NCBI GenBank assembly: GCA_002717225.1
Contig: PBDG01000009.1
Coordinates: 38,538 to 72,106 of the forward strand
DNA from: Rhodospirillaceae bacterium
GTDB lineage: Bacteria > Pseudomonadota > Alphaproteobacteria > UBA828
Direction: 5' to 3'
Length of the DNA: 33,569 nucleotides
The notes below the pieces were generated by a model. The model saw only the letters and a list, made by a program, of their open reading frames with translations, had not been told where the DNA came from and did not search any database. The translations under genes and the position numbers were made by a program. Shown here one piece after another: positions 8,439 to 31,203 of the stretch; positions within the stretch are counted from its first letter, which is position 1, and every line of letters begins with the position of its first letter.

Positions 8439-8468
8439 GCGATCGGCGTGGAAGAGGAGTAAAACGAA

Positions 8469-10258: not shown

Positions 10259-10275
10259 GGGAGAGGAACGGAATC

Positions 10276-11622: not shown

Positions 11623-11635
11623 GGGAGACGATCAT

Positions 11636-12028: not shown

Positions 12029-12067
12029 TGGCTCCCCCCACGCTGCCAGAAGAAGAATAACAAAACG

Positions 12068-13309
12068 ATGCCTTTTGGATTGATCAAATACGGCCTCTCA
12101 TCGAGCTATCCGGGCAAGCGTTTCCTGAGTGCCCAGCCAGATCTTAAGTCCAGCTACGACGTAGTCATAATCGGGGGTGGTGGCCACGGGCTGGCAACCG
12201 CCTATCACCTGGCGCGTTATCATGGCATCCGGAATGTAGCCGTGTTCGAGAAGGGCTATATCGGCGGTGGCAATACAGGGCGCAACACGGCGATCATACG
12301 CTCGAACTATCTAACGCCGGAGGGCGTGGCATTCTATGAGGAATCCGTTTCCCTCTACCGTCAGCTCAGTAACGAACTGGACTACAACATACTCTATTCG
12401 GAACGCGGTCACTTTACACTTGCGCATACCGATTCGGCGATGCGCACCTCGCGCTGGCGGGCCGAAGTCAACAAACATCTGGGAGTCGATTCCGAGCTCG
12501 TCTATCGTGATGATCTCGCGCGGCTCATCCCGCAGCTCAATTTGTCGGAAGATGTGCGCTATCCCGTGCTAGGTGCGCTCTACCATCCGCCTGGTGCCAT
12601 CGCACGACATGACGCAGTGGCTTGGGGTTATGCCGGGCGCGCCACCGAGCTCGGCGTCGAAATTCACCAGGGCACCACGGTCACCGATATTGAAGTGACC
12701 GACGGACGCGTTACTGGCGTAGTGACTGACCGGGGCACGGTTGCTTGCGGTACAGCGGTCCAGGCAGTTGCCGGCATGAGCAGTGAAGTAGCGCGCCTTG
12801 CAGGTATTAAATTACCGATTCGCACAATTCCGTTGCAGGCCTGCGTGTCTCAGCCCATGAAGCCTTCACTTGATCCAATCATCGTCTCAGGCAGTCTGCA
12901 CGTATATATCTCGCAAAGCGACCGGGGCGAGTTCGTCATGGGCGGGTCGACCGACCCCTATCCGCGCTATCAGACCACCTCCTCGCTAGATTTTATCGAG
13001 GGCCTAATGAGTCATGTTCTCGAATTACTACCTCATCTCTCGGAGGTGCAGATTTTACGACAATGGGCAGGCATGACCGACATGACTCCAGATTTTGCAC
13101 CGGTCATGGGCGAGACACCGGTTGAGAATTATTATATCGATGCCGGCTGGGGAACTTGGGGCTTCAAGGCAACGCCAGTCTGCGGCAAACGCATGGCCGA
13201 GCTGCTAGCAACCAGGCGGGTGCCTTCACTGATCGCCCCCTTCCGCTTGTCGCGCTTCGAGGATTTCAGCCTGGTCGGCGAAAAAGGCGCCGCGTCGGTG
13301 GGGCACTGA
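12068..13309 (+). CDS. mgdA: N-methylglutamate dehydrogenase subunit A (sarcosine oxidase beta-like)
   Basis: A 413-aa DAO-fold flavoprotein, the catalytic subunit of the heterotetrameric N-methylglutamate dehydrogenase/sarcosine oxidase type. The FAD Rossmann motif VVIIGGGGHGLATAYHLARY is at 32-51. GAIARHD carries His181, which corresponds to the histidine that binds FMN covalently in heterotetrameric sarcosine oxidase beta (known for the family). The C-terminus has PDFAPVMG and GWGTWGFKATPVCGK. The enzyme oxidises the N-methyl group and hands the formaldehyde-level carbon to the alpha subunit. The start is supported by homology; only a weak AGAAGAA precedes it. It leads the mgdA-B-C-D order. 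Whether the substrate is N-methylglutamate or sarcosine is not decided by the sequence; the mgs genes upstream favour N-methylglutamate. Confidence 0.87.
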   Translation: MPFGLIKYGLSSSYPGKRFLSAQPDLKSSYDVVIIGGGGHGLATAYHLARYHGIRNVAVFEKGYIGGGNTGRNTAIIRSNYLTPEGVAFYEESVSLYRQLSNELDYNILYSERGHFTLAHTDSAMRTSRWRAEVNKHLGVDSELVYRDDLARLIPQLNLSEDVRYPVLGALYHPPGAIARHDAVAWGYAGRATELGVEIHQGTTVTDIEVTDGRVTGVVTDRGTVACGTAVQAVAGMSSEVARLAGIKLPIRTIPLQACVSQPMKPSLDPIIVSGSLHVYISQSDRGEFVMGGSTDPYPRYQTTSSLDFIEGLMSHVLELLPHLSEVQILRQWAGMTDMTPDFAPVMGETPVENYYIDAGWGTWGFKATPVCGKRMAELLATRRVPSLIAPFRLSRFEDFSLVGEKGAASVGH

Positions 13310-13329
13310 GGAAAGGGTGAGGATCTGAT

Positions 13330-13635
13330 ATGAAACAGATGCAATGCCCCCTCAATGGTTGGCGCAACATCCAGGAATTCGCCCATGGTGGTGAGGTGGT
13401 GGACGAACCAGATCCCAACCGCTGCACAGATGCAGAATGGGCAGAATACATTTTCATGGAGGACAACAAGGCTGGCCTAGTGAAGGAGTGGTGGTGCCAT
13501 GTCGCCACTGCCTATTGGTTTATTGCTGAGCGAGATACGGTAAAGGACGAGATCGTGCGAACCTACGACCCGAGCGAGCTCTTCAAGGAACGCCGCGACT
13601 ACACCCGACCTGAAGCGTTGGAAGGGAAAAGCTGA
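13330..13635 (+). CDS. mgdB: N-methylglutamate dehydrogenase subunit B (sarcosine oxidase delta-like)
   Basis: A 101-aa small subunit aligning over its full length with sarcosine oxidase delta (for example EWAEYIFMEDNKAG and RDTVKDEI). In known sarcosine oxidase the delta subunit binds zinc with two N-terminal cysteines, a histidine and another cysteine. Here only Cys6 (CPLNG) and His57 (WWCHVATAYWF) remain: the second N-terminal Cys is Asn9, and no Cys follows His57. The zinc site therefore looks lost. It lies 20 bases after mgdA and 2 bases before mgdC. The fold and position make the assignment secure despite the missing ligands. Confidence 0.87.
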   Translation: MKQMQCPLNGWRNIQEFAHGGEVVDEPDPNRCTDAEWAEYIFMEDNKAGLVKEWWCHVATAYWFIAERDTVKDEIVRTYDPSELFKERRDYTRPEALEGKS

Positions 13636-13637
13636 TC

Positions 13638-16535
13638 ATGCAACGCTTAAGCGAACCCTTCGGCAGCTTGATCGACCGCTCGCAATCGATCTCTTTCCGC
13701 TTTGAAGGGGAACAGGTCAGTGGCTATCGCGGTGACACCATCGCTAGCGCCCTGCTTGCAAACGGCATAACCACCTTGTCGCGCTCGTTCAAATATCACC
13801 GCCCACGCGGCGTACTGTCCATGTGCGGTCAAGATTCTAATACCATGGTGCATGTGGGGCAGAAACCTAACGTACTTGCGGATCGCGTTATGATCGAAGC
13901 CGATCTCGAGGTGCGGGCACAGAATTATTGGGGCTCGCTGGAAAACGACCGCTTAGCCATGATACGCCATGTCAGCCGTTTTTTGCCGGTCGGCTTTTAC
14001 TATAAAGCGTTCTACAAGCCGCGTTGGGGCTGGCCGTTGTGGGCCAAACTGATTCGTCGCGTTGCCGGACTGGGAACAGTTGATCTCACCACGCCACATG
14101 GTTATTACGACAAGGAATATCTTTTTACCGATGTAACCGTGATTGGCGCAGGGCCGGCGGGTATGACTGCAGCTTTGGAGGCTGCAAAGGCTGGCGCAAA
14201 AGTATTGCTGATCGATGAGAATGCAAAAATCGGTGGCACGCTTGGCTACGCGCGCTTTGACGGCGATGGCCAGAGCGGCAGAAAGACCCTCGTCGACCTA
14301 GTCGCTGAAATCGCCAACGAAAAAAACATCCGCGTGATGACGGATACTGTGTGTACTGGCTGGTATAGTGACAATTGGCTGCCTCTGATAAAGGACAACA
14401 GACTCTATAAGCTGCGCGCCGGTTCACTGGTTGTGGCGACTGGCTGCTACGAGCAGCCGCTCATTTTCCATAACAACGATTTACCAGGAATCATGCTGGG
14501 CTCCGCAGCGCAGCGTCTGATACGACTTTACGGCGTGAAGCCCGGCAACCGCGCCGTGGTGGCGACCGCAAATCGTGACGGTTACGGCGTTGCACTCGAT
14601 CTTCTGGACGCTGGCGCGGAGGTTGCCTGCGTCGTCGATGTCCGAAGCAATCCGCCAGAAGATGAAATGAGCTCGGCGCTGATGCACCGTCATGTACCAG
14701 TCCTAGTCGGCTCAACACTGCGCGAAGCAGTGCCAACGCCTGGTGGCGGCGGAGTGCGCGCGGTCAAGATCGCTCATCTCGAAAGCGCCGAGCGCGCGGC
14801 CCGGCGCTACGACAGTTTCGCCTGCGACACGATTGCCATGTCAGGCAGCTACGCGCCAGCAGCGGCGCTGCTGCATCAAGCAGGTGGGCGCGTCAGCCTG
14901 CAAGATGGAAGCGGTGGATTTAGTGTTCACGATCTACCGGCGCATATCGCAGCTGCAGGCTCGGTCACCGGCACCCAGTCACTCGACTATGTTCTAGCAG
15001 AAGGCCAAGACGCCGGCCGCCAGGCGGCGCGTGACGCCGGGTTTGAGGTGATGTCGGCAAGCGAGCCACGCAGGACCGAACCGAAGGCTTCCGCTTGGCC
15101 AATCATCAGCCACGCCAAGGGTAAGGATTTCGTCGATTTTGATGAGGATTTGCAGACCCGGGATATCGAAAACGCCCTCACCGAAGGCTATCAGCATATT
15201 CAGCTCCTCAAACGCTTTACCACTAATGGCATGGGGCCCTCACAAGGTCGCCACGCCACCCTGCCAGCGATCCGTCTTGCCGCCCGAAGAACCGGGGCAA
15301 GCCTGAATGAAACGGGTTCAACCACCTCACGCCCACCGATCGGCCCTCTCACTATGGGGCATTTAGCGGGGCGTAGCTTCGAGCCAGTGCGCTACACGGC
15401 TATGCATTTCCGCCACCTAGAACGCGGCGCCAAGATGATGCCCGCCGGAGCCTGGATGCGACCGGAATATTACGGTGACGCGCGGAACAGGTTAGAGAGC
15501 ATCGCCGCCGAGGCCAGAAATGTGCGGGAAAATGTCGGTATAATTGATGTCTCAACCCTAGGCGGACTCGAGATTCGCGGCCCCGATGCAGCGGAATTTC
15601 TTAACCGCATGTACACTTTTGCCTATCTCAAACAGCCGGTGGGGCGCTCTCGATATGTGTTAATGACCGACGAGGCCGGTGTCATCGTCGATGATGGCGT
15701 CGCCTGCCGAATTCACGAAAATTATTTCTACGTCACTGCTACCACCTCCGGCGTAGATGGCGTGTATCGGACCATGCTCTGGTACAACACCCAATGGCGC
15801 CTTAAAGTCGATATCACGCATGTTTCAGCCTCTTACGCCGGGGTAAATATCGCCGGCCCGAAAAGCCGCGAGGTGGTCGATAGAGTTTGTGACGATGTCA
15901 ATCTTACCCCTGAGGAATTCCCTTATATGGGCGTGCGGCGTGGCCACGTCGCGGGCATTCCCGCCCTCTTTCTCCGCGTCGGATTCGTCGGCGAACTCGG
16001 ATATGAATTGCATGTGCCCGCAAGCCAGGGTGAGGCCTTGTGGGACGCCCTTATTGAGGCGGGTGCGGACGCAGGCATCCGTCCCTTTGGTGTTGAGGCC
16101 CAGCGTCTGCTGCGTCTTGAAAAGGGCCATATCATTATCAGCCAAGACACAGACGGGCTAACCACACCGCCTGAGGCGGACATGGCTTGGGCAATTTCCC
16201 GCAAGAAACCCTATTATGTCGGCATGCGCTCGGTATCGATCCAGGAGGCCAGTGGCCTCACGCGCAAGCTGGTCGGTTTTGAGATTGCTGATCCGGAGAT
16301 TACTCAGCCGAAGGAATGCCACCTTGTTATACGCGGCAATACTATCACCGGACGGGTGACATCTGTGGTGCGCTCACCCACACTTGGCAAGGTTATCGGC
16401 CTCGCCTATGTCGCACCCGATCAAGCCGAGCTCGGCAACAAGATCGACATCAAAGTAGATGGCGGCGAAATGGTGCAGGCCGAAGTGGTGAAACTGCCGT
16501 TCTACGACCCGGACGGCGAGCGGCAGGAGATGTAG
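13638..16535 (+). CDS. mgdC: N-methylglutamate dehydrogenase subunit C (sarcosine oxidase alpha-like)
   Basis: A 965-aa multidomain subunit of normal length for sarcosine oxidase alpha. In order: an N-terminal Fer2-like fold (about 15-105, with SFKYHRPRGVLSMCG), a nucleotide-binding region with VTVIGAGPAGMTAALEAAKA near 166 and a second part with LVVATGCYEQP, and from about 585 a GcvT-like aminomethyltransferase domain (NVGIIDVSTLGGLEIRGPDA, GVEAQRLLRLEKGHII) that binds tetrahydrofolate. The last domain traps the one-carbon unit as 5,10-methylene-THF, which links the enzyme to the fhs gene downstream. The stop overlaps the ribosome binding site region of mgdD, 2 bases before its ATG, which implies coupling. 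Confidence 0.9.
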   Translation: MQRLSEPFGSLIDRSQSISFRFEGEQVSGYRGDTIASALLANGITTLSRSFKYHRPRGVLSMCGQDSNTMVHVGQKPNVLADRVMIEADLEVRAQNYWGSLENDRLAMIRHVSRFLPVGFYYKAFYKPRWGWPLWAKLIRRVAGLGTVDLTTPHGYYDKEYLFTDVTVIGAGPAGMTAALEAAKAGAKVLLIDENAKIGGTLGYARFDGDGQSGRKTLVDLVAEIANEKNIRVMTDTVCTGWYSDNWLPLIKDNRLYKLRAGSLVVATGCYEQPLIFHNNDLPGIMLGSAAQRLIRLYGVKPGNRAVVATANRDGYGVALDLLDAGAEVACVVDVRSNPPEDEMSSALMHRHVPVLVGSTLREAVPTPGGGGVRAVKIAHLESAERAARRYDSFACDTIAMSGSYAPAAALLHQAGGRVSLQDGSGGFSVHDLPAHIAAAGSVTGTQSLDYVLAEGQDAGRQAARDAGFEVMSASEPRRTEPKASAWPIISHAKGKDFVDFDEDLQTRDIENALTEGYQHIQLLKRFTTNGMGPSQGRHATLPAIRLAARRTGASLNETGSTTSRPPIGPLTMGHLAGRSFEPVRYTAMHFRHLERGAKMMPAGAWMRPEYYGDARNRLESIAAEARNVRENVGIIDVSTLGGLEIRGPDAAEFLNRMYTFAYLKQPVGRSRYVLMTDEAGVIVDDGVACRIHENYFYVTATTSGVDGVYRTMLWYNTQWRLKVDITHVSASYAGVNIAGPKSREVVDRVCDDVNLTPEEFPYMGVRRGHVAGIPALFLRVGFVGELGYELHVPASQGEALWDALIEAGADAGIRPFGVEAQRLLRLEKGHIIISQDTDGLTTPPEADMAWAISRKKPYYVGMRSVSIQEASGLTRKLVGFEIADPEITQPKECHLVIRGNTITGRVTSVVRSPTLGKVIGLAYVAPDQAELGNKIDIKVDGGEMVQAEVVKLPFYDPDGERQEM

Positions 16536-16537
16536 CG

Positions 16538-17236
16538 ATGGCGCTCAAACCCACCCAATGCGCCCGGCGAAGCTTCCTCTATCGGGAGCTTGAAAACTCG
16601 GGGGCAAGATTCGAGGAACTGAATGGCAGTGCCATCGCAATAAACTATGGAGATGCTGAAGGCGAGACCGCACAGGCCCGCAAACTTGGCATCTGCGATC
16701 TCTCGTCGCTCCAGCGAACCGGATTCAAGGGTTGGAACATGGCCGATTGGCTCCGCCTGCAAGGTGTAGTTTTGGCCGAGGAAAGCAACATCACCTCGCC
16801 CCAGACAGACGGTACGCGGGTCGCTCGGCTTGCCCCCGGCGAAGCCTTGGTCCTAGGAGACTATCAAGGCGGCGGGGCGCTCATTGAAAAGCTCGATAGC
16901 ACCTGGTCGATGGAAAGTGCTGACGGATGCTACCAAGTACCTCGTGCCGAAACTAATTTCTGGTTAGCACTCACGGGCACCGAGGCACCGGCACTATTTA
17001 CCAAGATCTGCGCCGTAGATCTCCGCGACCAAGCAACATCAGTGCACAGCGTGGTACAAACAAATGTGGCACGGCTGAACGCAATCATAATCCGAGGCGG
17101 CACAGCCGAAGTGCCGGTGTTTGACCTCTTGAGCGATATAGCTTCAGCTGTATACCTCTGGCGCGCGCTACTAGACGCTATGGGGGAATTCGGCGGCAAA
17201 CCGATCGGCCTCAAAGCGTTGCAAGATTTGACATAG
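16538..17236 (+). CDS. mgdD: N-methylglutamate dehydrogenase subunit D (sarcosine oxidase gamma-like)
   Basis: A 232-aa protein placed and sized like sarcosine oxidase gamma. Recognisable pieces are [25 protein letters not shown] and the C-terminal [20 protein letters not shown] region, which resemble a degenerate GcvT-like fold. The gamma subunit is structural in the heterotetramer. ATG 16538 is chosen: AGGAGA lies 7 bases upstream, inside the end of mgdC, and the open frame further upstream (to 16316) is only read-through over mgdC in another frame. It is followed 14 bases later by the folate ligase gene. Confidence 0.82.
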
Positions 17237-17250
17237 AAAAGGGTAGAGAG

Positions 17251-18951
17251 ATGGCGACGAGTTCACAACATAAGAACCCCAAAAGCGATATCGATATCGC
17301 CCGCGTCGCCAAAAAGCGACCGATCCTGGAGGTCGGCAAGGATCGCCTCGGTATCGGTGCAGAAAACCTAGTACCCTACGGTCACGACAAGGCCAAAATT
17401 TCTCTCGATTATATTTCTTCGCTTCCGGACAATCCTGACAGCAAGCTAATTCTCGTCACCGCTATTACGCCAACTCCAGCGGGTGAAGGCAAAACAACCA
17501 CCACTGTTGGCCTCGGCGACGGTCTTAACCGTATTGGCAAGAACGCGCTCATTTGCCTGCGCGAACCAAGCCTGGGCCCCTGCTTCGGGCTCAAGGGCGG
17601 CGCCGCCGGCGGCGGCTATGCCCAGGTGGTCCCTATGGAAGAAATCAATCTCCATTTCACCGGCGACTTTCACGCCATCAGCGCCGCCAACAATCTTCTC
17701 GCCGCAATGGTCGACAACCACATCTATTGGGGTAACCGCGCGGAGATCGATCCGCGTCGGGTGAGCTGGCGGCGCGTCGTCGATATGAACGATCGTGCGT
17801 TGCGTTCCATTGTGTCGTCTCTGGGCGGTGTCGCCAACGGCTTCCCGCGCGAGGACGGTTTTGATATCACCGTGGCTTCCGAAGTAATGGCGATCTTCTG
17901 TCTCGCCCGCGATCTTGAGGATTTACGCAGCCGCCTCGGCAATATCGTCATCGGCTACAAGCGCGACCGTACGCCGGTACGCGCCCGAGAGGTCTCAGCC
18001 GAAGGCGCGATGACCACCCTCCTCAAGGACGCGCTTGCGCCCAATCTGGTACAGACGCTGGAGAACAATCCAGCACTTGTCCATGGCGGGCCATTCGCCA
18101 ATATAGCGCATGGCTGCAATTCTGTATTGGCGACGCGGACGGCCATGAAAATCTCCGATTACGTTGTTACTGAGGCCGGCTTCGGCGCTGATCTCGGAGC
18201 TGAGAAATTTTTTGACATCAAATGCCGAAAGGCTGGACTTTCACCGAATTGCGTCGTGTTAGTAGCTACCATTCGCGCGCTGAAAATGCACGGTGGCGTG
18301 ACAAAGGACGATCTGGGTAAGGAAAATCTCGAGGCACTCGCCACTGGCATGTCCAATCTTGAGCGCCATCTGTCCAACATCCAAAAATATGGCGTACCCG
18401 TGGTGGTCGGTGTTAACCGTTTCTCCGCCGATTCTGAAGCCGAACGTCAATTGGTCGTTGAGCGCTGCCAAGCAATGGGCGTCACCGCGGTCGAAAGCGA
18501 TCATTGGGCGTCGGGCGGTGCCGGGGCCGAGGGTCTGGCGCACGCTGTGGTCGAAACTATCGATAACAAGCCTAGCAACTTCAAGCCGCTCTACGGTGAT
18601 GATATTCCACTCTGGGATAAGGTACGCACCGTCGCCCAGCAAATTTATGGCGCCGAAGACATCATCGGCGACAAGAAAGTGGTAGGCCAATTCAAGGATT
18701 TGCAGGGAGGTGGCTTTGGTGACTTTCCGGTCTGTATAGCTAAAACACAATACAGTTTCTCTACTGACCCCAATCTGAAGGGTGCGCCCACGGGCCATGT
18801 CGTACCGGTACGCGAGGTGCGTGTCTCAGCGGGCGCAGAATTTCTCGTCGTTGTATGCGGTGATATCATGACAATGCCGGGTTTACCCCGCACACCGGCC
18901 GCCAACAGTATCGATGTTGACGATAGCGGAAACATCGTGGGATTGTTTTGA
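17251..18951 (+). CDS. fhs: Formate-tetrahydrofolate ligase
   Basis: A 566-aa enzyme interconverting formate, ATP and THF with 10-formyl-THF. The nucleotide-binding loop [18 protein letters not shown] is near residues 70-87, and [22 protein letters not shown] plus the C-terminal [16 protein letters not shown] are diagnostic for the family. In methylated-amine users it either releases formate from the folate-bound C1 unit with ATP gain or assimilates it. Its location right after mgdABCD fits the methylene-THF product of that enzyme; folD and purU partners are not in the window. A GGGTAGAGAG site precedes the ATG. It ends one base before the next start codon, so the deaminase downstream is translationally coupled. 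Confidence 0.95.
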
Positions 18952-18952
18952 C

Positions 18953-20239
18953 ATGGACCTCATTGTTCGTGGTGCCAATTTGCCGGATGGCCGCTCCGGT
19001 ATCGATATCGCAATCAAAAGTGGCAAGATCGCAGCAGTAGAAGCTAATATAGATACTTCTGCAGCGCGAGAGATAGATGCCATCGGCCGGCTCGTCACGC
19101 CGCCCTTCGTGGATTGCCACTTCCACATGGATGCCACGCTGCTCTGTGGCTACCCACGCTACAATGAAAGCGGCACTCTTCTTGAAGGTATCGAGCTCTG
19201 GGCCGAACTCAAGCCAAACCTCAGTCATGATTGGTATATCGAGCGCGCGCTCGAATATTGCGACTGGGCAGTGGGGCGCGGTCTCCTTGCCATCCGCAGC
19301 CATGTTGATACCACGGACCCCAGCCTTGGCGCTGCAAGAGCGCTGGTAGAGGTACGCGAGCAGGTTAAGGACTATATTGACCTCCAACTCGTTGCTTTCC
19401 CGCAGGATGGGTACCTAAGGTCTCCCATTGGCGTGGAGAACCTGGACAAAGCTCTAGACATGGGCATTGACGTAATCGGCGGCATCCCACATTTCGAGAG
19501 TACCAATGCTGAAGGCACCGAGGCGGTGCGACGCCTTTGCGCGCTCGCCGCCGAGCGCGGCCTGATGATCGATATGCATTGCGATGAGACCGACGACCCT
19601 AATTCCCGCCATATCGAGACGCTGGCTGCCGAGACCATCCGCCTGGGCTTGCATGGCCGGGTCGCAGGCTCCCATCTATCCTCGATGCACTCCATGGACA
19701 ATTACTATGTATCGAAACTCATTCCGCTGATGGCTGAGGCCGATATCCAGGTCATCGCCAATCCCACAGCGAATATGCTGTTGATGGGTCGCCACGACAC
19801 CTATCCCAAGCGCCGTGGTATGACTCGGGTGAAAGAATTGATGGCGGCGGGGTTAAATGTCTCTTTCGGCCAGGATTCGGTGATGGACCCTTGGTGCTCG
19901 CTCAATACGGGCGACGTGCTCGACGCCGCCCACATGGCAGTCCACGCCGGCCATCTTTCGGGCCACAATCAGATGAGCGCCTGCTTTCACGCGGTAACGG
20001 ACAATCCGGCACGTACCATGGGGATCGAAGGCTATGGCCTGGAGGTTGGCTGCAATGGCGACTTGGTGGTCCTCCAGGCGTCCGATCCGGTTGAAGCTGT
20101 GCGTCTACGCCCAACACGTCTCCATGTCGTTCGCCGCGGCAAGGTAATCGCCGAATGCCCGGCACAGACTGCCACACTCGATCTCCCTGGCCGCCCCAAA
20201 ACGACTGAGTTCATTCGCCAGACCAAACCACCGGCGTAA
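18953..20239 (+). CDS. CodA-family cytosine/creatinine deaminase-type amidohydrolase
   Basis: A 428-aa amidohydrolase, the same length as E. coli CodA (427). Metal and catalytic residues line up with a constant offset of five: H56-x-H58 in DCHFHMD, Q151, H209 and E212 in HCDETDD, H241 in GSHLSSMHS and D308 in FGQDSVMDPW. Two residues in the last motif differ from CodA: its Asp314 is Ser309 and its Phe316 is Met311, so specificity may not be cytosine. Creatinine deaminase belongs to the same group. ATG 18953 is one base after the fhs stop, making this the last gene of the N-methylglutamate operon. That placement would suit an enzyme releasing ammonia from a cyclic N-methyl or pyrimidine-like substrate. 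The upstream frame extension to 18914 is within fhs and is rejected. Confidence 0.85.
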   Translation: MDLIVRGANLPDGRSGIDIAIKSGKIAAVEANIDTSAAREIDAIGRLVTPPFVDCHFHMDATLLCGYPRYNESGTLLEGIELWAELKPNLSHDWYIERALEYCDWAVGRGLLAIRSHVDTTDPSLGAARALVEVREQVKDYIDLQLVAFPQDGYLRSPIGVENLDKALDMGIDVIGGIPHFESTNAEGTEAVRRLCALAAERGLMIDMHCDETDDPNSRHIETLAAETIRLGLHGRVAGSHLSSMHSMDNYYVSKLIPLMAEADIQVIANPTANMLLMGRHDTYPKRRGMTRVKELMAAGLNVSFGQDSVMDPWCSLNTGDVLDAAHMAVHAGHLSGHNQMSACFHAVTDNPARTMGIEGYGLEVGCNGDLVVLQASDPVEAVRLRPTRLHVVRRGKVIAECPAQTATLDLPGRPKTTEFIRQTKPPA

Positions 20240-20244
20240 TGCGC

Positions 20245-21477
20245 TTAGGCGTTCGCACGGGCAACCATCGCGTTTAACAGCACATCGCAGCCCGCCGCGA
20301 GATCACTGGGAGTGGCTTCCTCAATCTCATTGTGGCTTATGCCGTCCTCACAAGGAATGAAAATCATAGCCGTGGGGGCAATACGCGACACATAGACTGC
20401 ATCATGGCCGGCGCCTGAGGTGATCGGCCGATTCGCGTGCCCGAGACCATTCGCCGCCTTCTGCACCGCGTTGACGCAGGCTTCGTCGAAGATCACTGGC
20501 TCGGAATACCAGATACGGTTGAAATTGAGCTCAAGTCCAAGTTCGACGGCGATTTTTTCACACGCCGAATGAAACTCGTCCTCCATGCCGTCGAGAAAGT
20601 TAGCGTCCGGGTGCCTAACATCAGCACGGAAAAACACCCGGCCAGGAATCACATTAGTCGAATTAGGATGCACCTCCATATAACCAATGGTGGTACGCCC
20701 GTCGGGCATAGCAGCCTCGCCAATGCGGTGTGCCTCACTCACCATGCGTGAGACACCGACAAGAGCGTCTTTGCGGCGTTCCATAGGTGTCGTGCCAGCG
20801 TGGGACTCCATACCTAAAACTTCGATTTCAAACCAACGAATGCCTTGTACACCCTGGACTACGCCGATGGTCTTCTCTTCGGCTTCTAAGATTGGACCTT
20901 GCTCAATATGCGCTTCGAAGAAGGCGCCAAGCGGGCGCGGCGCGCATTTCAAATCGCCGTCATAACCAATGCGCTTAAGCTCATCGCCGAGTGTCGCACC
21001 GTCTTTATCGACGCAGGCAAAGCCTTCCTCCAGGCTGAATTCACCACAAAAGACGCCCGAACCAATCATCGCTGGAGCGAAACGCGAACCCTCTTCATTG
21101 GTCCAAGCAGATATTTCGATGGGCGCGTTAGTTTCGTAATTAAGATCGTTCAGCGTGCGTACCACTTCGAGTCCGGCAAGCACACCATAGATACCATCAT
21201 ATTTGCCGCCGGTTGGCTGGCTGTCGATATGGCTGCCAGTGCAGATGGGCGGCAGCGAATCATCTTTTCCCGCACGTCGTGCAAAAATGTTGCCCATCTC
21301 ATCGACGCTGACCGTACAACCCGCATCCTCACACCATTTGACATAAAGATCGCGCGCCGCCTTGTCTTCGTCGGTTAATGCCAAGCGGCATACGCCGCCC
21401 TTCTCAGTACTGCCGATCTTGGCCATCTCCATCAGACTTTCCCACAGGCGGTCACCATTTACCTTGATGTTCTGCAC
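20245..21477 (-). CDS. Zn-dependent N-carbamoyl-amino acid hydrolase (AllC/HyuC/beta-ureidopropionase type)
   Basis: A 410-aa M20-fold amidase that cleaves N-carbamoyl amino acids, N-carbamoyl-beta-alanine or allantoate to the amino compound, CO2 and ammonia. Binuclear metal ligands are visible: His and Asp in TGSHIDSQPTGGKYDGIYG, Glu in WTNEEGSRF, His in EAHIEQGP, and the final His in EDGISHNEIE. The dimerisation segment ESHAGTTPMERRKDALV is also typical. The start is GTG at 21477 with GGGAGA six bases upstream. It converges with the CodA-like gene (5-base gap) and is divergent from the DNA glycosylase gene. The substrate cannot be chosen between carbamoyl-beta-alanine, carbamoylsarcosine-like compounds, other carbamoyl amino acids and allantoate. 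It may complement or replace the two nitrilase-type enzymes nearby. Confidence 0.88.
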   Translation of the reverse strand: MQNIKVNGDRLWESLMEMAKIGSTEKGGVCRLALTDEDKAARDLYVKWCEDAGCTVSVDEMGNIFARRAGKDDSLPPICTGSHIDSQPTGGKYDGIYGVLAGLEVVRTLNDLNYETNAPIEISAWTNEEGSRFAPAMIGSGVFCGEFSLEEGFACVDKDGATLGDELKRIGYDGDLKCAPRPLGAFFEAHIEQGPILEAEEKTIGVVQGVQGIRWFEIEVLGMESHAGTTPMERRKDALVGVSRMVSEAHRIGEAAMPDGRTTIGYMEVHPNSTNVIPGRVFFRADVRHPDANFLDGMEDEFHSACEKIAVELGLELNFNRIWYSEPVIFDEACVNAVQKAANGLGHANRPITSGAGHDAVYVSRIAPTAMIFIPCEDGISHNEIEEATPSDLAAGCDVLLNAMVARANA

Positions 21478-21504
21478 GATTTTTCTCCCTAACTGGTCCA
21501 GTGT

Positions 21505-22083
21505 ATGACCCTTGGCCCGAATCGCCTCCCAATGTCAAGATTAAGCGGCATGAGTCAAAGACGGAAAGAAACAGAGGATGCGGTGCTGCCGGATGTGCTG
21601 GAGCCAGGACTCGAAGTAGTGTTTTGCGGTTCAGCGGCAGGACGTGTATCAGCCGAAGTTGGCGCCTATTATGCTGGGCCAGGCAACCGCTTTTGGCCGG
21701 TTTTGCACGCGACGGGATTGACGCCCCATAGGGTGTTGCCCGGTGACTTCCGTAGTGCGATCGATTACGGCATAGGCCTGACGGACATGAGCAAATTCCA
21801 ATCTGGTGCCGACAGCGCGCTCGCAAAGGAAGGTGATGATACTCAAGCCCTCGCCGCGAAAATAAAGGCCTATAAGCCGCGTGTCCTCGCCTTCAACGGC
21901 AAGCGCGCGGCGCGCGTCTTCTTTAATGAAATCATCGACGCGCCGCTCGGCGATTATGGCCTAAAATTACAGCGCCTGGGTTCAACAGCACTTTTTGTCC
22001 TGCCCTCGACCTCGGGCGCTGCCAGACGCTGGTGGGATGAAGCGCAATGGCACGCGCTCGCAAACTATCTTTACAAGGAATAA
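21505..22083 (+). CDS. Mismatch-specific (G:U/G:T) DNA glycosylase, Mug/TDG family
   Basis: A protein of at most 192 aa that would remove uracil or similar bases from mismatched DNA. The family core is seen as VVFCGSAAGRVSAEVGAYYAGPGNRFWPVL and the distal VLPSTSGAARRWWDEAQWH (the NPSG-like second motif appears as LPSTSG). The first motif is GSAAG instead of the GINPG of E. coli Mug, so the Asn that positions water is missing. Three in-frame ATGs (21505, 21532, 21550) are possible and none has a good ribosome binding site; the conserved region starts after the third. Its start is close to the divergent hydrolase gene and its stop is one base from the convergent nitrilase stop. It has no obvious link to the catabolic genes. 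Confidence 0.8.
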   Translation: MTLGPNRLPMSRLSGMSQRRKETEDAVLPDVLEPGLEVVFCGSAAGRVSAEVGAYYAGPGNRFWPVLHATGLTPHRVLPGDFRSAIDYGIGLTDMSKFQSGADSALAKEGDDTQALAAKIKAYKPRVLAFNGKRAARVFFNEIIDAPLGDYGLKLQRLGSTALFVLPSTSGAARRWWDEAQWHALANYLYKE

Positions 22084-22084
22084 T

Positions 22085-22954
22085 TTACGGGCGGCGCGCA
22101 GCGTGGACGTAGGTCTCGGGTCGGCGATCGCGGTAAAATTGCCACTGATCCCGTACCTCTCGGATCAGGCCGAAATCGAGATCGGAGACCACCAGAGCAT
22201 CACGATCATCCGGCCCCTGATCAAGCACATTGCCGCGCGGATCAGTGAAATAACTTGAGCCGTAAAACTGGTGATTTCCTATCACCGGCTCTACGCCGAC
22301 CCGATTGTTGGCACCAATGAAAATGCCGTTAGCGATGGCCGCCCCTGGCTGCTCTAGTGTCCAGATATGATCACTCAGGCCCCGAAAGGTGGCAGAGGGA
22401 TTGAAGACCAGCTCTGCACCATTCAGGGCAAGTTCGCGCCAGCCCTCAGGGAAGTGGCGGTCGTAGCAGATATAGACGCCGACTTTGCCCACAGCCGTCT
22501 CGAATACCGGAAAGCCGAGATTGCCATCCGCGAAATAATACTTTTCGTCAAATTTTCCAACCTTAGGAATATGAATTTTGCGGAACTTACCGCAATAACG
22601 ACCGTCGGCATCAATCACCGCGGCGGTGTTATAAAGTTTATCGTCGTCGCCAAGCTCGTAGATCGGTGAGACGATCACCATGTTAAGACGCTTGGCTGTC
22701 TCCATCATCAATTGTGTAGTCGGCCCCTCCGGAATCGCTTCAGCCGAAGCAAACCAGCGGTCATCGATCTCCGCTGGAAAGTAAGGCATAGTCCAAACTT
22801 CTTGTAGGCCCATAACCTGTACGCCTTGGCTGGCGGCATCTTCGATCAGTGCCATATGGGCTTCGGTCATCTTGTCGCGGATAGCGTCCAATGAATCGCC
22901 CAGAGGATCAGCCTTCAGCTCCATCTGGATGAGGGCGGCCTTGACAGTACTCAT
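22085..22954 (-). CDS. Nitrilase-superfamily beta-ureidopropionase-like amidohydrolase, copy 2
   Basis: A 289-aa carbon-nitrogen hydrolase with the Glu-Lys-Cys triad at E52 (GLQEVW), K126 (FRKIHIP) and C163 (YICYDRHFPEGW). The segment NGAELVFNPSAT with LSDHIWTLEQPGAAIANGIF matches beta-ureidopropionases and N-carbamoylputrescine amidases, which hydrolyse N-carbamoyl amines to the amine, CO2 and ammonia. ATG 22954 is preceded by GAGAGGAAA; the longer frame to 22987 overlaps the upstream gene and is rejected. It lies 20 bases after a close paralogue on the same strand, so the two are one transcription unit. Expected product in this context is beta-alanine, but carbamoylputrescine or another carbamoyl substrate is possible. 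Confidence 0.9.
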   Translation of the reverse strand: MSTVKAALIQMELKADPLGDSLDAIRDKMTEAHMALIEDAASQGVQVMGLQEVWTMPYFPAEIDDRWFASAEAIPEGPTTQLMMETAKRLNMVIVSPIYELGDDDKLYNTAAVIDADGRYCGKFRKIHIPKVGKFDEKYYFADGNLGFPVFETAVGKVGVYICYDRHFPEGWRELALNGAELVFNPSATFRGLSDHIWTLEQPGAAIANGIFIGANNRVGVEPVIGNHQFYGSSYFTDPRGNVLDQGPDDRDALVVSDLDFGLIREVRDQWQFYRDRRPETYVHAARRP

Positions 22955-22974
22955 AACGGTTTCCTCTCTAGCTC

Positions 22975-23847
22975 TCACGCGTGCCAATCAGCGATACGGG
23001 AATAAGCATCGGGGCGTCGGTCACGGAAGAACGCCCAGGTCTCGCGCACCTGGCGTATCGTGTCAAAATCGAGGTCCGCGACCACCAACTCGTCGTTGTC
23101 ATCCGAGCCTTGGTTGAGAATTTCGCCGCGCGGGTTGACAAAATAGCTCGAGCCATAGAATTCGCCTTTCTTCCAAGGCGCCTCCCAGCCGACTCGGTTG
23201 TTGGCGCCGATGAATATTCCGTTCGCCACGGCTGAAGCGGGTTGCTCGATGGTCCACAGATGATCGCTCAACCCCTTTGTGGTGGCCGACGGATTGAATA
23301 CCAGTTCGGCCCCGTTCAACGCCAGCTCGCGCCAGCCCTCGGGAAAATGGCGATCATAGCAGATGTAGACACCAACCTTGCCAACAGCAGTTTGAAACAC
23401 CGGATATCCAAGATCACCGGGCTTGAAGAAAAATTTCTCGTGATAGCCAATTACATGAGGTATGTGAATCTTACGAAACTTGCCAAGATAGCTGCCGTCG
23501 GCATCGATCACGGCGGCGGAGTTGTAATAGACGCCAGCCATTTCCTCTTCATATACCGGCACCACCAAAACCATGCCATGCTCCTTAGCAACAGATTGCA
23601 TATGCTTGGTCGTCGGGCCATCCGGGATCGGCTCAGCGCTGGCATACCATTTTGGATCGTGGCTGGCGCAAACGTAGGGGATATTGAAAATTTCTTGCAG
23701 GCCCAGCACCTGCACTCCTTGACGCCCAGCGTCTTCGATCAGCACCATATGGGCATCGAGCATTTTCTTCTTGATGGTTTCAGGCGAATCGCTCCCAACA
23801 TCACCCTTAAGGCCCATCTGAATGAGCCCCGCCTTAATCACCGCCAT
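22975..23847 (-). CDS. Nitrilase-superfamily beta-ureidopropionase-like amidohydrolase, copy 1
   Basis: A 290-aa paralogue of the next gene, with the triad in the same positions: E52 (GLQEIF), K126 (FRKIHIP) and C163 (YICYDRHFPEGW). The block from about residue 154 to 189 is almost identical between copies, while the substrate-side segments differ (CASHDPKW against PAEIDDRW near 60-67, and WEAPWKKGEF against VEPVIGNHQF around 224-235). This points to a tandem duplication followed by specialisation. ATG 23847 is chosen; a GTG at 23868 is also possible. Its upstream gap of 266 bases probably carries its own promoter. The product would be an amine or beta-amino acid plus CO2 and ammonia. Confidence 0.9.
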   Translation of the reverse strand: MAVIKAGLIQMGLKGDVGSDSPETIKKKMLDAHMVLIEDAGRQGVQVLGLQEIFNIPYVCASHDPKWYASAEPIPDGPTTKHMQSVAKEHGMVLVVPVYEEEMAGVYYNSAAVIDADGSYLGKFRKIHIPHVIGYHEKFFFKPGDLGYPVFQTAVGKVGVYICYDRHFPEGWRELALNGAELVFNPSATTKGLSDHLWTIEQPASAVANGIFIGANNRVGWEAPWKKGEFYGSSYFVNPRGEILNQGSDDNDELVVADLDFDTIRQVRETWAFFRDRRPDAYSRIADWHA

Positions 23848-24113
23848 CGCTGCTGACCCCCTTGGCACGTGTTTTCAGAACAAATTAACCCAAGATTAGC
23901 GCCCAGAGGGAACATGATCAATCTACGAGGCACCGATATTGCTGAAGAAACAAATTCGTCATCAATAGATTGAGTATCCAGCCAAAACAAATAACAGCGC
24001 GATGGCAGCGAAAGACATAATGAAGCTATTTGTTGATTAATGTGAGCCTGCTTAGGCGCATTTGGTTGGCTCTTATTTCTCAATCCTTCTACTTGTGGAA
24101 GAGCAGCTTTTTG
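23848..24113. other. Intergenic gap upstream of the tandem nitrilase genes
   Basis: A 266-base AT-richer gap on the path between two minus-strand transcription units. It should hold the end of the dehydrogenase transcript and the promoter for the nitrilase pair. I see no strong terminator hairpin with a T-run and no clear promoter box, so both are inferred from spacing only. Confidence 0.35.
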
Positions 24114-26824: not shown

Positions 26825-28168
26825 TCAGGCGGCCTCTTTCAAGACTGATCCGATGGTGTCAAAGATTTGATCGATCTGGTTCTTCTCGACAATGAGTGGA
26901 GGTGAGAGGGCAATGATATCGCCTGTGGTGCGGATTAGCACGCCACGATCGTAACATTTTTGAAAGGCGTCGAACGCGCGCGCCGTGGGTTTATCCGGAA
27001 TAGGCTCCAACTCGATGGCACCAACTAAACCCATAGCGCGGATATCCATAATATGAGCATAATCTCGGAGTGAAAATGCAGCATCGATCCAATAATTTTC
27101 GAGTTCGGCGGCACGCTCGAACAGGCCATCATTGAGATAAATATCCAGCGCCGCATGGCCCGCTGCGCATGCCACCGGGTGGCCCGAATAGGTGTAACCA
27201 TGGAAAAGTTCGATTGCATTATCGGGGCCACTCATGAAGGCATCATAGATATGCTTGCGAACTAAGACAGCGCCCATTGGTACTGCGGCGTTGGTAAGGC
27301 CCTTGGCGAGGGTCATAATATCGGGTACCACGCCAAACCGCTCGGCGGCAAAGCTTTCACCCAGGCGACCAAAGCCCGTGATGACCTCGTCAAAAATCAG
27401 CAGAATGCCGTACTTGTCGCAAATTTCGCGCAAACGCTTGAGATAGCCTTTGGGCGGCAAGATAACGCCGGCAGAACCGGCCATGGGTTCAACGATGACT
27501 GAGGCAATTGTTGAAGCATCGTGTAAAGCCACCAGACGTTCCAAGTCTTCCGCTAGATGGCCGCCCCATTCTGGCTCACCCTTGGTGAAGGCGTTGTGCT
27601 CGAGGTTAGAGGTATGGGACAGATGATCAACACCGGATAGGGCATTGCCGAAAAATTTGCGATTATTCGAAATGCCACCGACCGAGATACCGCCGAAGCC
27701 AACTCCGTGATAGCCCTTCTCGCGTCCTATCAGACGGGTGCGTGACGCATTGCCGGAGACATTGTGATAAGCGAGTGCGATCTTGAGCGCAGTATCAGCG
27801 GATTCGGAACCAGAATTGGTGAAAAACACATGGTCGAGATCGCCTGGCGCCAACGCGGCGAGCCGGGCTGCGAACTCGAAGGAGGCCGGGTGACCAATCT
27901 GAAAGCCAGGGCCATATTCGAGACGGCCCACCTGGGCACTAACCGCTTCAGTGATTTCCTTGCGAGCATGGCCACAATTGACGCACCAGAGACCCGACGT
28001 GGCATCTAGTACCTGACGATTATCAGTGGTGGTGTAATGCATCCCCTCAGCAGAGACGAACATACGCGGCGCACTCTTGAACTGCCGGTTAGCCGTAAAC
28101 GGCATCCATAACGGCTCGAGATCGTTAGGCATTGTTTCGTAACGAGCATTCTGGCTGCTATTTGGCAT
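26825..28168 (-). CDS. Omega-amino acid:pyruvate aminotransferase (class III, beta-alanine-pyruvate type)
   Basis: A 447-aa PLP enzyme transferring the amino group of beta-alanine or another omega-amino acid to pyruvate. The N-terminus LEPLWMPFTANRQFKSAPRM is typical of omega-amino acid:pyruvate transaminase. Cofactor residues are Asp260 (FDEVITGFGR) and Lys289 (TLAKGLTN), with TNSGSESADTALK at 117-129 for the phosphate. ATG 28168 has GGGAGA seven bases upstream; the earlier frame start at 28210 lies in the leader and is rejected. It is first in a minus-strand unit with ald and mmsA, divergent from an XRE-cupin regulator. Beta-alanine is the likely substrate given the neighbours; taurine or other omega-amines are alternatives. 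Confidence 0.92.
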   Translation of the reverse strand: MPNSSQNARYETMPNDLEPLWMPFTANRQFKSAPRMFVSAEGMHYTTTDNRQVLDATSGLWCVNCGHARKEITEAVSAQVGRLEYGPGFQIGHPASFEFAARLAALAPGDLDHVFFTNSGSESADTALKIALAYHNVSGNASRTRLIGREKGYHGVGFGGISVGGISNNRKFFGNALSGVDHLSHTSNLEHNAFTKGEPEWGGHLAEDLERLVALHDASTIASVIVEPMAGSAGVILPPKGYLKRLREICDKYGILLIFDEVITGFGRLGESFAAERFGVVPDIMTLAKGLTNAAVPMGAVLVRKHIYDAFMSGPDNAIELFHGYTYSGHPVACAAGHAALDIYLNDGLFERAAELENYWIDAAFSLRDYAHIMDIRAMGLVGAIELEPIPDKPTARAFDAFQKCYDRGVLIRTTGDIIALSPPLIVEKNQIDQIFDTIGSVLKEAA

Positions 28169-28219
28169 CTTCTGTCTCCCCAGCTGGTAACGACTACCAA
28201 AACTCACCACCAGCGTATC

Positions 28220-28294: not shown

Positions 28295-28310
28295 GTTTAA
28301 TATATTAAAC
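28295..28310. promoter_or_regulatory. Perfect 16-base palindrome, operator candidate for the XRE-cupin regulator
   Basis: GTTTAATATATTAAAC is a perfect palindrome in the divergent gap between the aminotransferase and the regulator. It is the only strong symmetric site there, and it overlaps the predicted start of transcription of the regulator gene. An HTH dimer of the XRE type would bind such a site. Confidence 0.55.
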
Positions 28311-28338: not shown

Positions 28339-28899
28339 ATGTCTAACAGCGCGGATTTCAACGTAGGAGCGCGACTGAGTGCCGTGCGCAAGATGAATCA
28401 TCTCTCACAACGCGAGTTAGCCAAGCGCGCTGGCGTTACTAACGGTACTATCTCGCTCATCGAGCAAAATCGGGTCAGTCCTTCTGTAAGCAGCCTACGT
28501 AAGGTATTAAAAGGCATCCCCATATCCATTTCCGATTTCTTCAGTCTCGAAGAAGCTCCGCGCCAACAGGTTTTTTTTGGCGCAAACGAATTATTGGAAA
28601 TCGGAGACGGGCGAATCTCCTACCGCCAAGTGCGGCGCGACCTAATCGGTCGCACACTACAAATTCTCCATGAGCGATATGCACCGGGTAGCGATACCGG
28701 ACGCGCCATGCTGCGCCACCAATCCGAGGAAGGAGGCATCGTCATCCGCGGCAAGCTTGAAGTGACCATCGGCGATCAACGAAGGGTGCTTGGCCCGGGA
28801 GATGCATATTATTTTGATTCTCGCTTGCCGCATCGCTTCCGAAATATTGGTGAGGAGGAATGCGAACTGGTCTCCGCCTGCACTCCGCCGAGCTTTTAG
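28339..28899 (+). CDS. XRE-family regulator with C-terminal cupin domain (PuuR-like)
   Basis: A 186-aa protein. Residues about 10-65 are a Cro/CI-type helix-turn-helix (LSQRELAKRAGVTNGTISLI then EQNRVSPSVSSLRKVLKGI), and residues about 110-180 are a cupin barrel with HQSEEGGIVIRGKLEVTIGD, GPGDAYYFDSRLPHRF. This layout is that of PuuR and related regulators of polyamine, amino acid or nucleobase catabolism, which sense a small ligand in the cupin. It is divergent from the beta-alanine operon and 79 bases upstream of the deaminase homologue on the same strand, so it may control both. No strong ribosome binding site precedes the ATG (GGGATAGGCAACA only). Confidence 0.9.
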   Translation: MSNSADFNVGARLSAVRKMNHLSQRELAKRAGVTNGTISLIEQNRVSPSVSSLRKVLKGIPISISDFFSLEEAPRQQVFFGANELLEIGDGRISYRQVRRDLIGRTLQILHERYAPGSDTGRAMLRHQSEEGGIVIRGKLEVTIGDQRRVLGPGDAYYFDSRLPHRFRNIGEEECELVSACTPPSF

Positions 28900-28906
28900 C
28901 TCACCG

Positions 28907-28935
28907 TTGACAGTACAATTTAGCGTTCTAACATT
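28907..28935 (+). promoter_or_regulatory. Possible promoter of the adenine-deaminase-like gene
   Basis: A perfect TTGACA at 28907-28912 with AACATT at 28930-28935 after 17 bases; the -10 matches only three of six. It lies just after the regulator stop codon and 44 bases before the next ATG, which has GGGGG nearby as a ribosome binding site. Confidence 0.35.
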
Positions 28936-28978
28936 TATTTATACACACGAGTAATATCGTCACAGATAGGGGGATTAG

Positions 28979-30778
28979 ATGGGATTGGAACGTGAAGCAC
29001 TGATAGATGTCGCTATGGGCTACGAGCCCGCCGACAAAGTCATAAAAAACTGTCAGATCGTTAACAGCCATACCGGGACAATCCACAAACCAAGCGACCA
29101 TGTCGCCATCAAGGGCGAACGCATCGCGGCCGTGGGTGATATGGATTATACCATCGGCAAGGATACAGAGGTGATTGACGCCGGCGGACGCTTCCTCGTT
29201 CCCGGCCTGATCGATCCGCATTGCCACCAATGGCACACCTACGCCAATTCCACCGTGTTTGCCGCCTGCCGCTTGCTGCACGGATCGACCACTATCGTCG
29301 ACGGCTTCTATGGACATGCCATCGTCAACGGACTACGCGCGTCGCGGTTTTTTCTCGATGAGTTACTACGCACGCCAGTGAAGCCTATCTTCGTCGTGCC
29401 GACCATGTGCTACACTCAGAACCGTGGCATCGGGTTTCCTGCCTCACCAAATGCGCCGAGTATCCAAGAACTACTTGATTCCCTCGAATGGCCCGAGACC
29501 AAGGGCATCGAAGAGATCAGCCCGGAACTGATGCTCTATCGTAACCAGCGCGACGCTGATCTCCTCAGCCTGATGGAGGAGTGCCTAAAACAGGGCAAAG
29601 TAATCCAGGGTCATTCGGCGGGTATGACCGACGATAAGATCACTAATGCATGGGTCTCCTCCGGCATCATGCACAACCATGAAATCGTTAACGCCTCAGA
29701 AACGCGGCGCCAAGCCGAGCTCGGCATCTGGATTGTCATCCGCGAAGGTAGTGCGTGCAAAGATATCGAGGCCTGCATCCCGGTGATCACCGAGGAGAAA
29801 TATGACGCGCGCGCTTTCCAGCTTTGTACCGACGTAATCACCCCAGATTGGATGCTGGAGCGCGGCCAGATGGATAATGCCATTCGTGTTGGCATTCAGA
29901 ACGGCTTAGATCCTATGACCGCTATCCAGATGTCAACCATCCAACCGGCGGAATTCTACCGGGTCAATCACGATATGGGCATGATCGCGCCTGGCCGCTA
30001 CGCGGATATCGTATTCGTCGAAACCCTGGAGGAGTTCGAGATTTCAAAAGTTATGGCTAATGGCAAGGTTTGGGTTGAGGACGGTAAACTACTCGAGCCA
30101 CTCGAAAACCCAAAGTATCCGGACTGGCTTTATGGGACCATGAATATCGACCGCACCCTCACTCCGGAGGATTTTCAAATTCGGGCGCCAGAAGGCGCCG
30201 GCGACACCGTCAAAGTTCAGGTAATCAACACGCGGGATGGCTCTCTGGAGACTCCGGGTTCAGTCGAGTGTCTAAAGGTGGTTGATGGTCTAGTGCAGGC
30301 TGATCCGGAAAATGGCATCAACAAGATTTGCATGATCGACCGCATCATGGGTACCGGTGAGATCGGCCTGGCCTTCGTCAAGGGCTTTGGCATCCAAGAA
30401 GGCTGCATTGGTACCACGGCAAACGTGTTCAACCAGAACATCGTGCTAGTCGGCACGTCGGACGAAGACATGGCCGCTGCTGCAAACGAGACAATTGCAA
30501 TGGATGGCGGTTTTATTGCGCTGCGAAGGGGTGAGGTGGTGGCTTCGCTGCCAACGCCGTTGAACGGTCTCGCCTCTGATTTGCCGTTTAATGACCTGTT
30601 CGAGAAACAGTTCGAGCTAATCAAAGCATGGCGCGACATGGGCTGCGACCTAGAAACACCCCAAATGAATCTCGAATTCGTCTCCTTGGTGACGATACCC
30701 TACTACCGTATCAGCACCAAAGGGCTCGCCTATATGACCCAGGACCGCTTCGAGCTGGCCGAATTATTCGTGCAGTAG
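28979..30778 (+). CDS. Adenine deaminase-family amidohydrolase with altered active-site motifs
   Basis: A 599-aa member of the Ade family (adenine deaminase) by overall layout and length. It has the N-terminal composite domain (VIDAGGRFLVPGLIDPHCH, HxH at 81/83), IQGHSAG, MHNHE, then MTAIQMSTIQPAEFYRVN with PGRYADIVFV, and a C-terminal Ade domain. Several hallmark motifs are changed. The DPHEIANV motif is DGFYGHAIVNG, the HIES that normally follows the HxH is HQWH, the GH of the GHxDxxIR motif is GQ, and the C-terminal AHDSHN is ANVFNQN. The enzyme therefore probably has a different metal centre and substrate, and calling it a true adenine deaminase would be unsafe. It follows the XRE-cupin regulator on the same strand. 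A nucleobase, hydantoin-like or other cyclic amide substrate is possible. Confidence 0.8.
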   Translation: MGLEREALIDVAMGYEPADKVIKNCQIVNSHTGTIHKPSDHVAIKGERIAAVGDMDYTIGKDTEVIDAGGRFLVPGLIDPHCHQWHTYANSTVFAACRLLHGSTTIVDGFYGHAIVNGLRASRFFLDELLRTPVKPIFVVPTMCYTQNRGIGFPASPNAPSIQELLDSLEWPETKGIEEISPELMLYRNQRDADLLSLMEECLKQGKVIQGHSAGMTDDKITNAWVSSGIMHNHEIVNASETRRQAELGIWIVIREGSACKDIEACIPVITEEKYDARAFQLCTDVITPDWMLERGQMDNAIRVGIQNGLDPMTAIQMSTIQPAEFYRVNHDMGMIAPGRYADIVFVETLEEFEISKVMANGKVWVEDGKLLEPLENPKYPDWLYGTMNIDRTLTPEDFQIRAPEGAGDTVKVQVINTRDGSLETPGSVECLKVVDGLVQADPENGINKICMIDRIMGTGEIGLAFVKGFGIQEGCIGTTANVFNQNIVLVGTSDEDMAAAANETIAMDGGFIALRRGEVVASLPTPLNGLASDLPFNDLFEKQFELIKAWRDMGCDLETPQMNLEFVSLVTIPYYRISTKGLAYMTQDRFELAELFVQ

Positions 30779-31203
30779 CGCTACGTCAGAAGCAGTACCA
30801 AGCTAAATGACCTTGCGATTACGGCACTGCCTGGCTTCGTAGAGCAGCTCAAAGACACCAATATGGCTAAGGATTTCGTGCGCATTCCAAATGCGCTCGG
30901 TCTCCTTCTGCAGGCGCGCCTGATGCGCATCAATTGCTCCCGATTATACAACTATGCCGGCTTGTGCGTTGAGAGCGCGTTGGAACTAGGGATCAACAAA
31001 GCGGTTTCCACCGAACTAGGTGTGCTTCATGGCGAGCAATTTGAACGGCTTAAATCAGGCGTTCGTGTTATTTAAAACATGAAAGCAAACGCGGAATGCC
31101 CATCGGTTACCGCGCACATTGTCTATCGGCTGAGACAGCAGATGGTGAACTCATCAAAAAGCCAGAGACCGGGCATATACCCGCGCAAGTTAGACGTCCT
31201 GTC
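30779..31203. other. Intergenic stretch with a possible gene remnant
   Basis: A 425-base gap. From 30779 to 31075 an uninterrupted frame of 98 codons continues directly in frame after the TAG of the preceding gene; its first Met is at 30863 (70 codons, no ribosome binding site). The end, with VESALELGINKAVSTELGVL then HGEQFERL, loosely recalls the C-terminal tail of class II fumarate lyases (aspartase/fumarase, 'A..A...g.s..e...e.G.l..eeld..l'). That resemblance is weak, so this may be a decayed fragment, a small real gene or chance. The remaining 128 bases show nothing clear. Confidence 0.3.

Follow-up and report, generated by a model that had tools for sequence, protein, structure and literature searches.

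Not all members of the family that includes the adenine deaminases Ade/AdeC act on adenine. The substrate that YerA and Bh0637 deaminate is N6-methyladenine or N6-methyladenosine rather than adenine (PMC12133300; PMC13296781). The metal ligands of YerA are H87, H89, E179, H210, H231 and D283, and the residues of a third metal are absent from it (PMC12133300). Arg260 of the adenine deaminase Atu4426 is described as contacting the base, and the equivalent arginine also contacts the base in YerA (PMC12133300). The whole stretch of DNA that was analysed here (33,569 nucleotides, called the window) encodes an Ade-like protein whose R255 aligns with Arg260 of Atu4426, the Arg in IREGS. The gene and its parts are the following:

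28979..30778, + strand: gene for an Ade-like metallohydrolase (subfamily 'D'), 599 aa, ATG start, full-length ORF
29219..29227, + strand: metal ligands H81 and H83, the HxH pair (PHCH), which map to H87/H89 of YerA; QWH follows in place of IES
29300..29329, + strand: DGFYGHAIVN in place of DPHEIANV, residues 108-117
29513..29515, + strand: E179, bridging metal ligand (GIEEIS), invariant column, maps to E179 of YerA
29612..29614, + strand: H212, metal ligand (QGHSAG), invariant column, maps to H210 of YerA
29678..29683, + strand: H234, metal ligand, and E235 (HNHE), invariant columns; H234 maps to H231 of YerA
29831..29836, + strand: D285, metal ligand/general base, invariant and mapping to D283 of YerA, followed by V286
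30260..30739, + strand: Adenine_deam_C domain, residues 428-587, with NVFNQN in place of HDSHN

TIGR01178 (adenine deaminase) was by far the best-scoring family model for the window protein, at 322 bits, which is under its curated cutoff of 472.5; the enterobacterial adenine deaminase model gave 206.6 bits (cutoff 768). Two Pfam domains scored above cutoff, Amidohydro_1 (PF01979, 82.9 bits) and Adenine_deam_C (PF13382, 146.2 bits), and the best phmmer match among solved proteins was 3nqb, the adenine deaminase Atu4426. No membership of the hydantoinase/dihydropyrimidinase group was found with TIGR02033, which matched residues 21-108 only (31.9 of 393 bits). An AlphaFold model built on an alignment of nine close copies and of Ade proteins found on viral_contigs (pLDDT 91.1, pTM 0.91) aligned with 3nqb over the whole length (Z 47.1, 2.8 A, 572 residues). 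Isoaspartyl dipeptidase, the next family, matched over the barrel only (Z 32.5, 332 residues), and 3nqb/3t81 were the sole full-length structural matches among the matches listed. Judged by its sequence and predicted structure, with both domains, the Ade fold over the whole chain and the ligands of the binuclear site, the window protein is a member of the Ade/COG1001 family. Automatic annotation would tend to label it adenine deaminase. No second Ade-family gene was found in the window's genome, which is 87% complete.

The six ligands of the two-metal site are all present (H81, H83, E179, H212, H234 and D285), as are R255 and E235. Indeed, the six ligands and E235 are among the columns that are invariant in 20 diverse Ade proteins, and their retention suggests a binuclear metal content for the window protein. 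Published residue numbers for the two Asp of the CTDD element in Atu4426 name the second one as the base (PMC12133300). The YerA-like sequence used here (its C-terminal part is 82% identical to that of B. subtilis YerA) and two Thermus proteins have TTDG at this position. Since YerA has a single Asp there, we took the first Asp of CTDD as catalytic, which argues for D285 as the catalytic residue retained in the window protein. In adenosine deaminase, D295 is the metal residue and D296 the N7 residue; by analogy, the second Asp of CTDD would bind the purine.

The hallmark motifs were compared in an alignment that included E. coli Ade, Atu4426 and Ade-family proteins of many Alphaproteobacteria, with residues numbered by alignment column. 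HIES is replaced by HQWH (E85 to W, S86 to H), DPHEIANV by DGFYGHAIV (D109 to G, P110 to F, H111 to Y, E112 to G, N115 to I) and HDSHN by NVFNQN (H483 to V, D484 to F, S485 to N, H486 to Q), and these replacements are fixed in the window protein and in all eight full-length subfamily relatives compared. CTDD has become CTDV, a replacement absent from the earlier note, and V286 is fixed in all nine proteins. The HIES, DPHExxNV, CTDD and HDSHN elements of adenine deaminase proper are thus absent from the nine proteins, each replaced by a fixed alternative. The earlier note had described a full-length Ade homologue that kept the architecture, length and HxH pair and lost four hallmarks. The first part is confirmed by the ORF, the Pfam domains and the match to 3nqb. 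The second holds for HIES, DPHEIANV and HDSHN, but GHxDxxIR is altered at one residue alone: it reads GQMDNAIR, with H297 to Q as the sole change and D299 and I302-R303 retained. Atu4426, a genuine adenine deaminase, is also without the GHxD histidine, so a missing motif alone is no proof of lost function. More broadly, conservation reaches 95% or more in 93 columns of an alignment of 34 Ade proteins; the window protein keeps 56 of these and has changed 37, mostly to one residue that is fixed in the subfamily.

A scan of 84,980 species genomes by short exact peptides, the reach of which is close relatives only, returned ten loci, all in MAGs of uncultured Alphaproteobacteria: eight full-length (L006-L013), one near full-length (L014) and one fragment (L015). 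With the window copy, the eight full-length relatives share 78-93% identity. The enzyme gene is present in 10 of the 21 genomes of the window's family (its own genome counted) and in one Hyphomicrobiales genome (L013, 78%). About 1,300 genomes, drawn from the family and sampled more widely in the class (385 genomes), the order to which L013 belongs (397) and the phylum (398), yielded no homologue of 36%-78% identity. Among eight aligned copies 425 of the 599 residues are invariant, every copy that is not ended by a contig edge is full-length, and dN/dS is 0.02-0.12, the low end being rough as several dS values are near saturation.

The subfamily forms a clade with 100/100 support on a long stem. 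By its phylogeny, it is a deep and separate branch, new and uncharacterised, of the known Ade family in uncultured Alphaproteobacteria of marine type. Its possible sister is a rhizobial/lactobacillus clade (90/67), a grouping that was not recovered when YerA and Thermus proteins were included in a second tree. YerA groups with the Thermus proteins (100/100), with the window clade outside; the YerA row in the tree was assembled from in-frame segments of a frameshifted relative and from the C-terminal part in the PDB, and its branch is long. A frameshifted, Bacillus-like yerA-yerB region was seen in a sequence labelled as a Klebsiella variicola plasmid (L130, CP063894.1 23195-28512), which is probably a mixed or noisy assembly.

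The neighbourhood of the enzyme gene in the window contains these features:

26825..28210, - strand: AptA-type omega-aminotransferase, ancestral neighbour of the regulator
28295..28310, no strand: perfect palindrome GTTTAATATATTAAAC, exact on both strands and conserved in the family between AptA and the PuuR-like regulator, whose operator it may be
28339..28899, + strand: PuuR-like regulator (HTH and cupin), member of the AptA cluster
28900..31203, no strand: segment with the enzyme gene between the regulator and the PRISE gene, missing at the collinear site from G007 and from contig C587 of G008
28907..28934, + strand: match to the promoter consensus, TTGACA-16-TAACAT, immediately upstream of the enzyme gene, with equivalents in L014 and L006
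31204..32472, - strand: PRISE-like SDR gene, which adjoins the regulator in genomes without the enzyme gene

The genes for AptA, alanine dehydrogenase and MMSDH run divergently from that of the PuuR-like regulator. The pair of AptA and regulator occurs in 11 of the 21 family genomes, eight of these 11 being without the enzyme, and at the set threshold the regulator was missing from seven family genomes with the enzyme. In G008 both genes are present but on separate contigs. The gene order in G007 is PRISE, 15 bp, regulator, AptA, Ald and MMSDH, with the enzyme gene absent, and the window is collinear with G007 on either side of 28900-31203. In G008, the site on contig C587 is intact and empty, and the enzyme gene is on a second contig, between 39 bp that match the 3' end of the regulator and 169 bp that match the 3' end of the PRISE gene. 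These remnants of the regulator and PRISE genes indicate that the same junction once existed in G008 (L006 5011-7148 and L122), which has either a moved copy or a mixed assembly.

The palindrome GTTTAATATATTAAAC is present solely in the AptA-regulator gap, and no match was found near the enzyme gene at up to three mismatches. Promoter-like matches in the region are at chance level by count. TTGACA-16-TAACAT has its equivalents in L014 and L006; in the other genus a different conserved stretch lies upstream of the enzyme gene. From their conservation, the palindrome is a putative operator and TTGACA-16-TAACAT a putative promoter. Control of the enzyme by the PuuR-like regulator had seemed a plausible reading of this locus. 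It is not supported, since the linkage data, the empty site in G007 and the operator-like palindrome all speak against it. The enzyme gene rather looks as if it had been inserted beside the AptA regulator with its own putative promoter, and not recruited by the regulator. Separately, the HTH-cupin regulator of omega-amino acid catabolism is uncharacterised, and the palindrome at 28295-28310 is an obvious candidate for its operator. A beta-alanine-type pathway that joins the enzyme to AptA, alanine dehydrogenase and MMSDH, to which the adjacency of the genes had pointed, was dropped, because the arrangement is the same in genomes without the enzyme.

The genomic context of the enzyme differs among three lineages, and co-occurrence is partial. 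In genus g6, the gene of an NAD(P)-dependent Gfo/Idh oxidoreductase starts 11-17 bp after the enzyme gene (mechanical start calls), usually followed by two luciferase-like flavin monooxygenases (LLM1 and LLM2) and an acetoacetate-decarboxylase-like protein (ADC); genes for a class III aminotransferase and an ABC transporter are also nearby. At L013, a ribose-type ABC transporter precedes the enzyme gene, and HyuA/HyuB-type subunits and another luciferase-like monooxygenase follow it; the solved proteins closest to this HyuA are N-methylhydantoinase, acetophenone carboxylase and 5-oxoprolinase. No recognisable purine genes or NCS2 purine permease were found in the three contexts examined. Of the 22 genomes tested, six have LLM1 of g6; each of these, the window's genome included, also has the enzyme (chance of 6/6 ~0.006 by hand calculation with 11/22 genomes having the enzyme, relatedness uncorrected). 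Two well-assembled genomes, G013 and G019, have the enzyme and no LLM1, so that the link is suggestive only.

Several other gene sets were seen in the window's genome. Four clustered luciferase-like monooxygenase genes lie near a nitrilase and an SDR gene on contig C62 (L120 6779-10867, G000); LLM1 on this contig, which is unlinked to the enzyme gene, is 90% identical to the g6 operon gene. Positions 6969-18951 of the window hold a complete-looking N-methylglutamate set with GmaS-like and MgsA/B/C-like genes, sarcosine-oxidase-type (N-methylglutamate dehydrogenase-like) subunits and formate-THF ligase, comparable with methylamine use in marine bacteria. A homarine/N-methylglutamate link was considered for the enzyme, as the N-methylglutamate genes are 10 kb away, and the literature search gave no usable support for it. 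Finally, a cytosine-deaminase-like gene (PRK07572 over cutoff), a Zn-dependent hydantoinase/carbamoylase and two tandem N-carbamoylputrescine-amidase-like nitrilases lie at 18914-23868, possibly an N-scavenging cluster.

The loss of several family hallmarks could be taken to mean that the protein is a decaying or non-catalytic relic of Ade. However, the replacements are common to eight relatives at the dN/dS values given above, which excludes decay, and the full-length copies, the invariant residues and the retention of every ligand agree with the earlier note on this point; the relic explanation is extremely improbable. A conserved and non-decaying separate branch makes a changed substrate the likely reading. 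The new functional subfamily that the earlier note proposed is thereby upheld as a separate, constrained branch with invariant motifs, while its change of substrate is likely only. We think it probable that the protein is a catalytically competent, binuclear-metal hydrolase or deaminase of the Ade family on its own branch, and that its substrate is most likely a small nitrogen compound other than adenine. The elements tied to purine recognition and to the third metal site have been replaced, and the loops around the site remodelled and then frozen, so adenine is most likely not the substrate. We infer the reaction and substrate of the subfamily, as distinct from its fold, ligands, selection and separateness, which are read from the sequences and the model. 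A metal-bridged hydroxide, activated by D285, would attack an sp2 carbon that bears nitrogen, and ammonia or an amine would be released or a ring C-N bond opened, as in other amidohydrolases. The substrate would be a small nitrogen compound in N-scavenging catabolism. The gene itself travels between genomic contexts. The operon partners in sister genera (luciferase-like monooxygenases, Gfo/Idh, class III aminotransferase and lactam/imide hydrolases of the HyuA/HyuB type) point to the catabolism of a nitrogen compound. A more specific version, in which a new ring-opening or C-N-hydrolysing enzyme degrades a marine N-heterocycle together with luciferase-like monooxygenases and HyuAB-type or aminotransferase steps, in a pathway that would itself be new, is a speculative one that we consider doubtful.

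Since R255 and the catalytic ligands are retained, adenine or an adenine derivative could still be the substrate. For example, the protein may be a divergent adenine deaminase in which the hallmarks serve a dispensable third metal and adenine is still converted to hypoxanthine. The whole fold, the six ligands and the adenine-contacting Arg are kept, the genome has no other Ade found and TIGR01178 is by far the best model, all of which suits this explanation. Yet 37 of 93 near-invariant positions have changed and mostly become fixed, the score is below the TIGR01178 cutoff and the second CTDD Asp is lost, though two other divergent clades in the same comparison keep it. Moreover, the three contexts are without purine genes or NCS2, unlike those of the rhizobial/lactobacillus Ade-like genes, and we regard this explanation as quite unlikely. 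Slightly better placed, if still rather unlikely, is an enzyme that deaminates a modified purine or another aminopurine or aminopyrimidine, in parallel to YerA with N6-methyladenine/N6-methyladenosine. YerA-like and Thermus homologues are without the same hallmarks and have a similar stretch at the metal ligands, and the equivalent of R255 touches the base in YerA; but the subfamily is not placed with YerA in the tree, the YerA recognition residues seen to be conserved are those of the shared core, and nucleoside genes are absent from the contexts. A small nitrogen compound other than adenine is the substrate that we favour, and nine full-length proteins make a bounded set for assays.

Adenine-linked elements have been lost in at least three separate clades of the Ade fold: the YerA-like proteins, the rhizobial/lactobacillus proteins and the window subfamily. 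The two-metal core is intact in the window clade and in YerA, and one ligand is exchanged in the rhizobial clade. The Ade family is therefore well suited to the study of how a deaminase core comes to be directed to new substrates. A further Ade-like clade (L030, L032 and L034, match region 1501 onward) shows the reverse of the window pattern: it keeps HIES and DPHE but has changed catalytic-site positions (AGDIN, GQ, SHV) and lost the Arg; it is possibly non-catalytic or has another metal site.

The window protein shares with Ade/AdeC (TIGR01178; Atu4426 3nqb, E. coli AdeD/YicP) the two-domain fold, the six ligands and the IREGS Arg. It differs in its identity of about 27-35%, in the replacement of HIES, DPHEIANV, HDSHN and the second CTDD Asp, in its score below the TIGR01178 cutoff and in the absence of purine genes nearby. 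The rhizobial/lactobacillus 'C' clade (S. meliloti WQP29458, L. reuteri WP_321533645; about 36% identity) has likewise lost DPHEIANV and HDSHN but, unlike the window protein, keeps HxHxE, GHxD and CTDD, has Cys for the GH metal ligand and adjoins NCS2 permeases. On S. meliloti pSymA (L066 8645-13755), two Ade-like genes flank an NCS2 permease, and WQP29458 is annotated as adenine deaminase. YerA/Bh0637 (cog1001 subgroup 2) resemble the window protein in the absence of the hallmark and third-metal elements, in the kept two-metal site and in having one Asp only behind the T of strand 8. HIES, DPHE and HDSHN are missing from the YerA-like and Thermus sequences, which, like the window protein, have a PHxHx[WF]xxY-like stretch at the metal ligands. 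In contrast to YerA/Bh0637, the window protein lies in a separate clade with different remaining loops, and its identity to the Thermus members is about 25%. Hallmark loss is not new in itself, as YerA is without the same elements and active on another substrate, and on this precedent the loss of the motifs in the window protein predicts a change of substrate.
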